IMG/VR virus record: IMGVR_UViG_3300043434_000693
Coordinates: 32,241-96,240 of that record
Strand: one strand, 5' to 3'
Length of the DNA: 64,000 nt
DNA from: a virus
Shown here: in pieces, positions 12,676 to 16,226 of the stretch
Position numbering within the stretch: the stretch's first letter is position 1
Layout of the letters: the number at the start of each line of letters is the position of its first letter
Notes under the pieces: generated by a model
What the model was told of the DNA's origin: nothing
Seen by the model: only the letters and a program-made list of their open reading frames with translations
The model's database searches: none
Program-made: the position numbers and the translations under genes

Positions 12676-15120
12676 TTATCCAAATCGATTACCGGACAAC
12701 CGTTGTGTCTCTTTAATCTGTTTATTGCTCGCTTCGTTAATGGCTTCTGTGTGTTCAGTCATTCTACCAATATTGTTATTTAACTCAACTAATATATCAT
12801 ACACATCATTTAAGGAGACTGATCTTGCTACAACTTTTGGCTGTTCTTGAGGCACAGGTGTTGCTTTTTGAGTTTCTTTTGCTAATACTCCTGATTGTTC
12901 CGCTTCGTATTTTGCTTTTAATGCTGCTGCATCATCGCCTGCACCGAGAGTTGACATTGAAACTTTAGGTTCTTCGGGTTTTTTAATTTCAGCTAATGAA
13001 GATTTGATATTAGTTGTATCAATTTTTGGTGCAACTACTGATTTATCTGTTTCTACAGGCTTTTCTGCGCCAGTTAACTTATCATAAAGGTTTCCGAATT
13101 CATCTCCGATACCAAACATAGCATCTGATATCCCTGTCGGAACTAAATCACTTGCAAATGAAGTTAAGTCATCAAAGAAACTAGAATCGTCTCCGGTTTT
13201 TTCTTCTTCTAATTTTTTCTCTTCTTTAATCGAGCTTGTATCTAAAGGTATAATTTTAGATAGTTCATTTACAATAGAATTTCCGATATCATCAAATTGT
13301 GGAAGAATTTTTCGAGTACTTGCTGCTATTGATTGTGCATCTGCTGGTTTGTTTTCGCTAAATGCATCGCCTAAACTTTTAAATTGCTCAGTGAAATCAA
13401 ATTTTGAAAATAATTTTTGCATTTGGGCTTTGTTTGCTACAATTTCTTCACCGTGAAGTAATGCTGGAGTACCAGATGAGCTAAATTTTTCAAACATTCC
13501 ATTAAAATCTAACCCGCCGTCTAAGAATTTTTGAAAATTTGGAGTTCCGTCTGCATATTCTTGTTTAAATTCAGGAACTTTAAGCATGTCTTCTACACTT
13601 TGAGAAGGTTTTACTCCTAAGTAGTCTTTTATTTTACCCATAGCTTCAGGAACAATGTTCTTTTGCATTTCAGCTGCTTGCTCAGGAGATTGTCTAACAA
13701 TGCTGTCGTTTAATTGTTTTATAGTTTCATTTAATTCTTTATTTGAATTAACAAGATTATCCATGTTTACATTAAGACCAGCTGTTTGATCAAGTAGAGC
13801 CGCATTACTTTGAGCAATCGTGTGTGCTAATTCGATCGAAGTTTTATCTAAAGGACGACCTTCTCTATCTACTCCGGTCATTTCTCCAGTAACTTCTTTT
13901 TTCATTTGTGCCGCTGCTTCTTCAGGGGATAAAGGTTCTTTGCCCGCAGTTTCAATTTCTTTTACCTTTGCGCTAGTTGCCCTTAATGCTTCTTGGCTAC
14001 CGGTCATAATATCTTTAGATGCGGTGTTTAATCCGCCAGTTACTAAGGTAATTTGGTCTCTAAAGGCTTCTGTTTTTTGATATTCAAGTACAGAAACTTT
14101 AGCTCTTTCCATTGCTGCTTGTGCTTCAGCTTTTTGTTGATCAGTTACTGCATTTTTTTGCATCATGACTGCTTGCTCAAGTTCTGCCCCTGCAGGACCC
14201 AATGCTGATATTAGTTCAGTTCCTCGTTGAGTTCTTATGCCGCCTGTGAAAATTTCGTCTGTTAAATCTTTAACTGCGGGGCCTAATGCATCGAGCTCGC
14301 TGTTCATTTGACGATATCGATCTTGTGCTGCCTCGTCTAAATGCATTAATTCAGCTTGTATTTGTACATTGTCGAGTCTTGATTGCTGTTCTTTTATCTG
14401 TGCTTCACGACTAGTTCCGTATAATCTAGTATTTTGCTCCATTGATACTGCAAGTTCTTGTGCAGACTCAGTAAGTTGGCGTTGCGATCTTTCACTTGAA
14501 AGATCCATATTGTACCGTTTATATGCAGATGTAACCATAATGTTGTTAATGTCATCTGTTGACATTCCTAATTTGGTTAATTGCTGTATAACTCCTGATT
14601 CTCTAAGATTTTTGCCGAATAACAAGAAGTTTTCTTGAGATCTATTAACTGTAGACCCTAACCCTGCTAGATTTTCTGAATTGTTAGCTACAACTGATCG
14701 GTATTGTTCGAGAGACATCCCTGCACCGGTGACTTGTTTGGCCATTCCGGTTAGGTCTTGATTGAAGTTTGCGCCTGATTTTTGTAGATCTTGCTGAACA
14801 TTGTATGTTGACATTACCATGTCTTGTGCAGAGCTTCCTACACTTGATAATGCTGCTCCGATCCCAGGAACTTTCGACATTGCTTGGTTAAATGTGTCGA
14901 ATGCTGTGGATACATTTACAGATCCTTTATATAAACCAGCTAACCCTGATGATGCCTTGTCTACTGCTGTGTTAAAAACTCCTAAACCAGGTACAGAACC
15001 GCTTAACGAGCTTCCTGCACTAGGTGCCGGGGCACTTGCATTTGGTCGAACTATCGATGCTAGAGTGCTCGTTTGCTCTCTAATTAGGTCTCGCATGTCT
15101 TCTTTTGTTAGATCAGTCAT
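12676..15120 (-). CDS. Probable tail tape measure protein, 814 aa
   Basis: An 814-residue Ala/Gln/Ser-rich protein with long helical stretches and heptad-like runs (residues 60-320 and 395-470). Near residues 547-560 it has 'SGTPALLHGEEIVANKAQMQ', close to the 'tpaLlHGeE.v' motif found in many tape measure proteins. 'VPGIGAALSSVGSSAQDMV' and 'GLGSTVNRSQENFLLFGKNL' are also typical of this class. The C-terminal third is low-complexity with KPEEPK linkers and a final helix. T4's own tape measure is gp29 (590 residues); this protein may fill that role. It is divergent from the gp26/gp51-family gene, which would be its assembly chaperone. A general structural protein is the alternative. Confidence 0.6.
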   Translation of the reverse strand: MTDLTKEDMRDLIREQTSTLASIVRPNASAPAPSAGSSLSGSVPGLGVFNTAVDKASSGLAGLYKGSVNVSTAFDTFNQAMSKVPGIGAALSSVGSSAQDMVMSTYNVQQDLQKSGANFNQDLTGMAKQVTGAGMSLEQYRSVVANNSENLAGLGSTVNRSQENFLLFGKNLRESGVIQQLTKLGMSTDDINNIMVTSAYKRYNMDLSSERSQRQLTESAQELAVSMEQNTRLYGTSREAQIKEQQSRLDNVQIQAELMHLDEAAQDRYRQMNSELDALGPAVKDLTDEIFTGGIRTQRGTELISALGPAGAELEQAVMMQKNAVTDQQKAEAQAAMERAKVSVLEYQKTEAFRDQITLVTGGLNTASKDIMTGSQEALRATSAKVKEIETAGKEPLSPEEAAAQMKKEVTGEMTGVDREGRPLDKTSIELAHTIAQSNAALLDQTAGLNVNMDNLVNSNKELNETIKQLNDSIVRQSPEQAAEMQKNIVPEAMGKIKDYLGVKPSQSVEDMLKVPEFKQEYADGTPNFQKFLDGGLDFNGMFEKFSSSGTPALLHGEEIVANKAQMQKLFSKFDFTEQFKSLGDAFSENKPADAQSIAASTRKILPQFDDIGNSIVNELSKIIPLDTSSIKEEKKLEEEKTGDDSSFFDDLTSFASDLVPTGISDAMFGIGDEFGNLYDKLTGAEKPVETDKSVVAPKIDTTNIKSSLAEIKKPEEPKVSMSTLGAGDDAAALKAKYEAEQSGVLAKETQKATPVPQEQPKVVARSVSLNDVYDILVELNNNIGRMTEHTEAINEASNKQIKETQRLSGNRFG

Positions 15121-15177: not shown

Positions 15178-16005
15178 ATGGCTGAAAATCCATTACAGCA
15201 ATTTTTTCGTCAACCTAAAATTTACATTTCGCTTCCGTCAAAAGGAATCTACAATCCCCCGGGATCAATTCAAGGTGAAGTAGAGAATATTGCAATTTAT
15301 GGCATGACCGGGATGGACGAGATTGTTATTAAGACTCCTGATGCATTACTATCCGGGGAAAGTACAGTAAAAATTATCGAAAGTTGCTGTCCTTCAATTA
15401 AAGATGGGTGGTCAACTTCTGCATTAGATACCGATTTGTTATTAACTGCGATAAGAATAGCAACTTACGGAAATCAATTATCTGTAGACAAGAAATGTGC
15501 AAAATGCGGCGAAGAAAACAGCTATGATATAGATCTAAGTAACATTATTGACCATTTTAATCGTTGTAACTTCGAAAATAAAGTAGTATTAAAGGATTTT
15601 GTAATTAAATTACAACCATTAAGCTATCGTCAAACTACAAATTTTTCCATTAAAAACTTTCAAATACAACAAAGACTTGCACAATCAGATTCTATTCAAG
15701 ATGAAACTGAAAAGAAAAATATCATTACGCAATTATTTAAAGAACTTGCTGAATTACAAAATGAGATTTTTTCTGCAAGTGTAGATTCTGTTGACTTAGG
15801 AACAACAGTTGTAACTGAAAGGGTTTATATCGACGAATGGTTAAAAAACTGCGAATCTATTATTTTTGATGAAATTAAAAAAGTTTTCAATCAAAATAGA
15901 GAAACTTGGCGTATTCCGTCGGTTAAAGTTCAATGTTCTGCGTGTGAACACGAGTCTGATCTAACTATAAATCTTGATAATTCAAGTTTTTTCGCGAGAG
16001 CCTGA
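15178..16005 (+). CDS. 26: gp26/gp51-family baseplate hub / tail assembly protein
   Basis: A 275-residue member of the T4 baseplate family that contains gp26 and gp51. The N-terminus 'PKIYISLPSKGIYNPPGSIQGEVE', followed by 'MTGMDEIVIKTPDALLSGESTVKIIESCCPSIKD...DTDLLLTAIRIATYGN', is diagnostic. Two CxxC pairs, 'CAKCG' near residue 105 and 'CSACEH' near 261, form a probable zinc ribbon. In T4 these proteins are needed to build the baseplate hub and load the tape measure. The start has an AGGAG site and its own late promoter. The last codons contain a slippery heptamer (15987-15993), and a conserved-looking -1 frame follows, so two products are likely: 275 residues, and about 349 residues by frameshift. 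Confidence 0.85.
   Translation: MAENPLQQFFRQPKIYISLPSKGIYNPPGSIQGEVENIAIYGMTGMDEIVIKTPDALLSGESTVKIIESCCPSIKDGWSTSALDTDLLLTAIRIATYGNQLSVDKKCAKCGEENSYDIDLSNIIDHFNRCNFENKVVLKDFVIKLQPLSYRQTTNFSIKNFQIQQRLAQSDSIQDETEKKNIITQLFKELAELQNEIFSASVDSVDLGTTVVTERVYIDEWLKNCESIIFDEIKKVFNQNRETWRIPSVKVQCSACEHESDLTINLDNSSFFARA
15987..15993 (+). other. Candidate -1 ribosomal frameshift site (T TTT TTC)
   Basis: In the zero frame of the gp26/gp51-family gene the bases read T-TTT-TTC, an X XXY YYZ heptamer of the type used for -1 slippage (UUU and UUC phenylalanine codons re-pairing with UUU). It lies four codons before the stop at 16003-16005. Slippage enters a frame that stays open to 16226. About 10 bases downstream, GATTAGA could pair weakly with TCTAATT; no strong stimulatory stem is visible. 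Confidence 0.6.
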
Positions 16006-16226
16006 TTAGACTAGACCAATCTCAAATAGCAGATCATCTAATTGGGCTTGACAACGATGTTAAAAATTTCAAATTAGAGCTTTATCGGCTTGTTTGGTAT
16101 ATGCGCGGGGGCGTTAGTATCGATAATCTGTTGTATAATTTAAGTTATGACGACAGATCTGCGATGTACGCTGTTGTAAAAGACAACATCGAATTAACTA
16201 AAGAAACAAAAATGCCCCTTATTTAG
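15993..16226 (+). CDS. -1 frame C-terminal extension of the tail assembly protein (no start codon of its own)
   Basis: Entered by -1 slippage at 15987-15993, this frame adds 77 residues: an acidic/helical linker, then 'LELYRLVWYMRGGVSIDNLL', and a helix ending 'ELTKETKMPLI'. The open frame begins after a TAA at 15978-15980 and contains no ATG, GTG or TTG before ATG 16101, which lies inside the WYMRG motif itself, so ordinary initiation would discard half the domain. A non-canonical ATT at 16005, overlapping the TGA stop, is the only other option. Short W/R-rich domains added by frameshift are typical of tail assembly chaperones such as lambda gpGT. The stop overlaps the stop of the convergent 332-aa gene by 4 bases. 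Confidence 0.65.
   Translation, partial: RESLIRLDQSQIADHLIGLDNDVKNFKLELYRLVWYMRGGVSIDNLLYNLSYDDRSAMYAVVKDNIELTKETKMPLI

Follow-up and report, generated by a model that had tools for sequence, protein, structure and literature searches.

The window analyzed here, a stretch of 64,000 nucleotides taken from a 96,240-base viral record, carries at 15178-16005 on the + strand a gene encoding a 275 aa protein, the candidate short tail assembly chaperone (TAC-N, or "G" product). The sequence-only reading had placed this gene in the gp26/gp51 family, an assignment confirmed by a profile match to PF12322 (T4_baseplate, gp26/gp51-type) at 47.9 bits, above the curated cut-off of 24.5. Profile search of the whole 96,240-base source record yielded this single PF12322 match. 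The predicted structure of the product has an AlphaFold pLDDT of 89.8, and its matches in BFVD include T4-like hub assembly proteins, the SP-15 hub subunit and gp26 of Aeromonas phage 25.

The gene ends with ...AGT TTT TTC GCG AGA GCC TGA. Re-reading of the sequence located the reported in-phase slippery heptamer T TTT TTC, exact to the base, at 15987-15993 (+ strand), three sense codons before the 0-frame stop TGA (16003-16005, + strand). The -1 frame extends from stop to stop over 15981-16226 (+ strand) and encodes the "T" domain, FFRESLIRLDQ...WYMRGG...MPLI. As had been proposed, this frame remains open for 77 more codons, from 15981 to the TAG at 16224-16226 (79 if the two Phe codons of the heptamer are included). 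It contains no ATG, GTG or TTG ahead of the Met in WYMRG, and it stops 4 bases inside the convergent gene. The latter, for which no family was found, occupies 16223-17221 on the - strand, and its stop, with its end at 16223, overlaps that of the -1 frame by these 4 bases. The divergent neighbour (814 aa, 12676-15120, - strand) is conserved beside the chaperone gene. Fusion of the two frames would give a predicted product of ~349 aa.

Conservation of the heptamer and of the -1 frame

A tblastn search retrieved 88 phage records with a homologous protein, jumbo phages nearly throughout. At all -1-clade loci examined from those records (phages 121Q, RaK2, CBB, JNE01, 7t3, PA5oct-like, Atu_ph07, Phosso and Vibrio 2.275.O), the gene has T TTT TTC at its end, with a T domain in the -1 frame beyond it; the heptamer of Stenotrophomonas phage CM1 is T TTT TTT. 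The 13 first relatives were too divergent for one profile, and viral contigs were searched with three subclade profiles, which gave more than 100 further loci; the window clade alone has more than 550 relatives in these contigs. The 112 loci analyzed were reduced to 90 non-redundant ones at <90% nucleotide identity, which comprise giant-genome phages of enterobacteria, Agrobacterium, Pseudomonas and Vibrio together with freshwater viral contigs. The -1 counts do not include L053 or the distant loci L132-L142. Alone in its clade, L053 has a chaperone gene that stops early (237 aa) and lacks the FF shift site.

The heptamer is T TTT TTC in 89 of the 90 non-redundant relatives and T TTT TTT in the remaining one, and the start-less -1 frame is conserved in the same set, a positive outcome of the check on homologues that the earlier reading had proposed. 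The residue preceding FF is variable (N in 44 cases, S in 27, D and H in 6 each, also R, G, Y and T; A is listed too when relatives and cyanophages are taken together), yet the third base of its codon is T throughout the 90 relatives. Elsewhere in the ORFs of the same sequences, T TTT TTC is used at ~5% of the other Phe-Phe pairs. On this comparison, conservation of the heptamer is far beyond chance. Because the sequences share ancestry, a product of probabilities cannot be read as a p-value, and more weight attaches to a wobble base that stays constant while the residue changes.

The -1 frame is open in all complete relatives, with a length of 72-82 codons and FFR at its start in nearly all of them. 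Selection was analyzed beyond codon 10, on 60 relatives of the window clade that align without gaps. The dN/dS ratio is 0.21 in the -1 frame, versus 0.93 and 1.67 in the other frames; stops are absent from the -1 frame and frequent in the two others; and variability is highest at the third codon positions of the -1 frame. By these measures the -1 frame genuinely codes for protein, under purifying selection. Its T domain is confidently predicted to be helical (pLDDT 90.8), with helices at residues 2-7, 11-38, 45-51 and 54-74.

The contig is a metagenomic fragment, and one could suppose that a single long frame was broken by an indel, through an assembly error or gene decay, or that the -1 frame is meaningless. 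This explanation was rejected and its probability is negligible: the same break occurs at the same heptamer in the independently sequenced phages 121Q, RaK2, CBB, Atu_ph07, PA5oct and Phosso, and it recurs in 112 loci, with purifying selection acting on the frame beyond it.

It could also be supposed that the -1 frame holds a small gene of its own, whose translation would begin by termination-reinitiation at a start codon that overlaps the stop or is non-standard. Three observations go in this direction: in the window a CTG at 16002 overlaps the TGA, the junction reads ATGA in some relatives, among them Phosso, JNE01 and Atu_ph07, and gp51 of cyanophage S-PM2 is annotated as a free 57-aa protein. 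The distribution of possible starts argues against it. At the -1 codon that overlaps the main stop, 55 of the 90 relatives have CTA, 8 ATA, 7 ATG and 4 TTA; since CTA prevails, the window's CTG is no conserved start. An ATG is found within the first three -1 codons in 6/90 relatives, and in 55/90 the first one comes after codon 33, so that a normal start with a ribosome site, which would have spoken against frameshifting, is not the general case. Moreover, the first conserved -1 codons (FFR) are located upstream of any such start, and reinitiation leaves unexplained the invariant heptamer, the stem described below and the collinearity with the one-piece gp51 of T4. We therefore regard reinitiation as improbable, and programmed -1 frameshifting as the preferred reading.

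The stem downstream of the heptamer

The sequence-only reading had seen no strong stem downstream of the heptamer, and only a weak one. This has to be corrected, as a strong, covarying stem of 12 bp is present. Its 5' arm, AGCCTGATTAGA, is located at 15999-16010 and its 3' arm, TCTAATTGGGCT, at 16037-16048, both on the + strand. The spacing from the heptamer is 5 nt in the window, whereas the family consensus is 6 nt, with a stem starting from 16000. The predicted energy is -15.6 kcal/mol, and for the window sequence alone the stem is moderately strong (z -1.76).

Pairing was analyzed over 62 sequences: 92.5% of the cells are paired, and double changes occur in 6 of the 12 pairs. None of 500 shuffles matched the observed value for paired cells, for double changes or for the covariation score. 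When the partner is slid by one base, pairing falls to 38.7-52.6%. RNAalifold, run with no structure supplied, gives the same helix from column 14, six bases past the heptamer. The Atu_ph07-like clade has different 5' arms and loops; for the majority of its members, position 14 is again where the stem begins, with partners ending at 50, 74, 75, 81 or 84. As the arms also encode protein, part of the covariation could reflect codon use. Codon use is unlikely to be its whole cause, because compensatory changes affect six pairs and the start of the stem is constant.

The stimulator of a -1 frameshift element is either a downstream structure at 5-9 nt or an upstream Shine-Dalgarno, and the stem, at 6 nt, corresponds to the former. 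Upstream Shine-Dalgarno sequences show no enrichment in the window clade. The stem search of the relatives found no strong stem in the RaK2/CBB subclade, and Rfam gave no match for the stem element.

Cyanophages, T4 gp26/gp51 and the +1 sister clade

PF12322 genes are present in one copy in the genomes of cyanophages S-PM2 and P-SSM4, versus two in T4 and two in a Klebsiella T4-like phage. The gp26 gene of S-PM2 ends with TCT TTT TTC GCA TAA. Its -1 frame tail is what is annotated as "gp51 baseplate hub assembly catalyst" in the same phage (57 aa; L287:3691-3864, i.e. 151190-151363). The cyanophage "gp51" is probably not a free-standing gene. Beside this gp26/gp51 locus, S-PM2p209 (L287:3857-6501) contains an ADP-ribosyltransferase-like domain (PF01129, E 7e-6).

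In non-redundant cyanophage-type loci the heptamer is T TTT TTC in 73 of 74 cases and T TTT TTT in the last one. The Kyanoviridae (S-PM2, P-SSM4) resemble the window in their heptamer and in the T domain carried by the -1 frame. They differ in that the heptamer is situated one codon before the stop, that a GAGGG is present 9 nt upstream, and that the T frame is annotated separately. A strong anti-SD duplex upstream of the heptamer is found in 88% of the cyanophage loci, versus 14% of the controls. The duplex ends 9 nt ahead of the heptamer in each of the 69 loci where it occurs, and the Glu codon there is GAG in 56 of 69 sequences, versus 30% elsewhere in these genes. In cyanophages the stimulator is probably this internal Shine-Dalgarno-like GAGGG, in place of a strong stem.

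These signals also bear on a slippage of the RNA polymerase on the T run, which would yield mRNAs with one base more or less and frames fused by ordinary translation. The heptamer does contain a T6 run, and transcriptional slippage on A/T runs is a known route to fused frames. In bacteria such slippage usually needs runs of 8-9 or more, for which six T are short. The run is exactly T6 followed by C in 162 of 164 relatives and cyanophages, and the spacings of the stem (6 nt) and of the GAGGG (9 nt) fit a ribosome, not a polymerase. Polymerase slippage is accordingly very improbable, still more so than reinitiation.

Profile comparisons relate the fusion products to the T4 proteins. The fusion of jumbo phages of the window clade matches that of cyanophages over its length (98.0% probability, E 1.7e-13). 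The cyanophage fusion matches T4 gp51 from end to end and is collinear with it through the junction (98.9%, E 2e-17), and the cyanophage T domain matches the gp51 C-terminus (96.9%, E 1.8e-10). As for the short form, that of cyanophages matches gp26 (99.1%, E 1.6e-18), which ends at the same FF. Within T4, gp26 and gp51 are homologous across all of gp26 (99.4%); the Pfam model PF12322 spans only residues 1-201 of gp51. Since the fusion aligns with gp51 and the short form with gp26, which stops at the same FF, T4 makes as two genes, according to these alignments, what cyanophages and jumbo phages make from one. T4 and the other Straboviridae hold the pair as two paralogous genes, whereas the 96-kb record of the window phage contains a single such gene, with a shift signal. 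The PF12322 domain of the T4 proteins is homologous to that of the window, the short protein ending at FF and the long one adding a helical C-terminal domain. T4 gp26 and gp51 have been named hub assembly chaperones, and gp51 is given as absent from the particle (PMC3004832).

The T domain of the window, taken alone, matches the gp51 C-terminus weakly (38% with 6 gp51 sequences, 20.7% with 41) and appears to connect to gp51 only via intermediates. A direct homology between the T domains of the window and T4 was considered and dropped, as hhalign on single sequences did not single out gp51 among all T4 ORFs. Likewise, HMMER found no match to the T-domain profile in the genomes of T4, 44RR and G5211, and Foldseek of the T domain gave weak matches only, with gp51 of phage ZZ1 at rank 20 (E 4.7).

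A sister clade comprises Flavobacterium phage immuto, Microcystis phage Mel-JY01 and ~80 viral contigs. There the T domain is in the +1 frame, after a conserved YTT TGG CCT GAC or a near variant at the 3' end of the PF12322 gene (loci L143-L222, L017 and L018), and the T frame has no conserved start. The T-domain profile of this clade matches that of the -1 clade (88%). A +1 frameshift is the probable source of the same long product in the immuto-like clade.

Proposed mechanism and relation to known chaperones

Programmed -1 frameshifting very probably makes the short and long tail assembly chaperones, of T4 type, at this locus. Comparison with relatives establishes four of its elements, namely the heptamer, the open and selected -1 frame, the covarying stem and the homology to T4 gp26; what we infer is that ribosomes shift here, and how efficiently, that both proteins are present, and that they bind tape measure and tube. 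Most ribosomes would read to the 0-frame stop and release the 275-aa short form. A minority would pause at the stem, 5-6 nt downstream of the heptamer, and two tRNA-Phe would slip one base back on U UUU UUC, from UUU to UUU in the P site and from UUC to UUU in the A site. The shifted ribosomes would read the 77 codons of the -1 frame and produce the fusion with its four-helix T domain ("GT", or TAC-NC). If the analogy with lambda holds, the tape measure protein would be coated by many short forms, and a few long forms would recruit tail tube subunits, so that the tube would polymerise to its correct length. T4 has two genes for these products: gp26 ends at the frameshift point of its relatives, and gp51 is collinear with the fusion.

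Gene order in relatives, together with the homology to T4 gp26/gp51, supports the reading of these products as tail assembly chaperones. In Flavobacterium phage immuto, Bacillus phage SP-15 and Listeria phage LIS04, the order is sheath, tube, PF12322 gene, T-domain frame, and tape measure or its equivalent. In the window clade the chaperone gene is not located between tube and tape measure.

As in the window, the G/GT system of lambda, which has counterparts in other long-tailed phages, has a heptamer near the 3' end of the chaperone gene, a start-less -1 frame, and a short and a long product, and its placement between tube and tape measure is matched in some relatives. The lambda heptamer is different from the T TTT TTC of the window, which in the window clade is followed after 6 nt by the conserved stem. 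Searches revealed no resemblance of the window protein to known G proteins, in sequence or in fold. A Foldseek search of PDB with the predicted model of the short form gave no match at E <= 0.001, so the fold lends no support to shared ancestry with lambda gpG or HK97 gp13. In BFVD, the fold predicted for the short form recurs in jumbo-phage proteins of 450-690 aa from RSF1, phiEaH2, Special G and Eowyn; judging by these models, the chaperone family may reach further than Pfam shows. The Vandenendeviridae/Andersonviridae, represented by phage Adele, likewise show a conserved -1 shift on poly-T where the short chaperone gene ends; their invariant motif is GTTTTT, unlike the window (PMC12846349).

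A review of 2016 stated that G-T frameshifting is conserved in long-tailed phages "except T4" (PMC5009743). The sequence-only reading knew of no description of such an arrangement in the T4 gp26/gp51 family; T4-type chaperones had in fact been described in 2022. The work of Vladimirov, Gautam & Davidson (Virology 2022;566:9-15) is known here through two papers that cite it. According to the PRFect paper (PMC10885494), some T4-like phages have one short and one long chaperone gene and no frameshifting; according to the Adele paper (PMC12846349), poly-T slippery sequences occur in T4-like chaperone genes. As represented in these citing papers, the principle of a T4-type short/long chaperone pair, made by frameshift or by two genes, is already known, and a claim of novelty for the T4 gp26/gp51 pair replacing a frameshift was dropped, the 2022 paper preceding it. 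In the literature searched, which includes that paper as relayed by the two citing ones, neither the conserved stem nor the start-less jumbo-phage clade nor the +1 variant appeared.

Taken together, it seems likely that one family has reached its short/long pair by four routes: -1 frameshifting helped by a downstream stem (window clade, Atu_ph07-like), -1 frameshifting helped by an internal Shine-Dalgarno (cyanophages), +1 frameshifting (immuto-like) and gene duplication (T4). Recoding signals would have been exchanged freely while the requirement for two products was kept. Long-tailed phages need two forms of the tail chaperone in a set ratio, and the present data link the gp26/gp51 pair of T4 with a frameshifting family, one that abounds in T4-like cyanophages and giant-genome phages. 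One implication is that the annotations of hundreds of genomes miss the long chaperone or list its end separately, as "gp51" or "hypothetical protein". The exact signals are usable in reporters.

The divergent neighbour of 814 aa adjoins the chaperone gene in 56 relatives. CBB_251, which occupies the same position, is a major CBB virion protein, among the most covered. CBB_250 is absent from the CBB virion mass-spectrometry table in which its neighbour CBB_251 is present, a non-detection that is weak, indirect evidence for the absence of a lambda-type chaperone from the finished virion. The 814-aa protein is possibly a structural or tape-measure protein; identification as a tape measure was not retained, as it has no similarity to T4 gp29 or to annotated tape measures. 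Finally, window positions 17779-18860 on the - strand contain two ORFs with a 4-base overlap: the first has a weak homing endonuclease match (phrog_314, E 0.0022), and the second resembles a GIY-YIG start, YLITNLTNGRMYIGKK.
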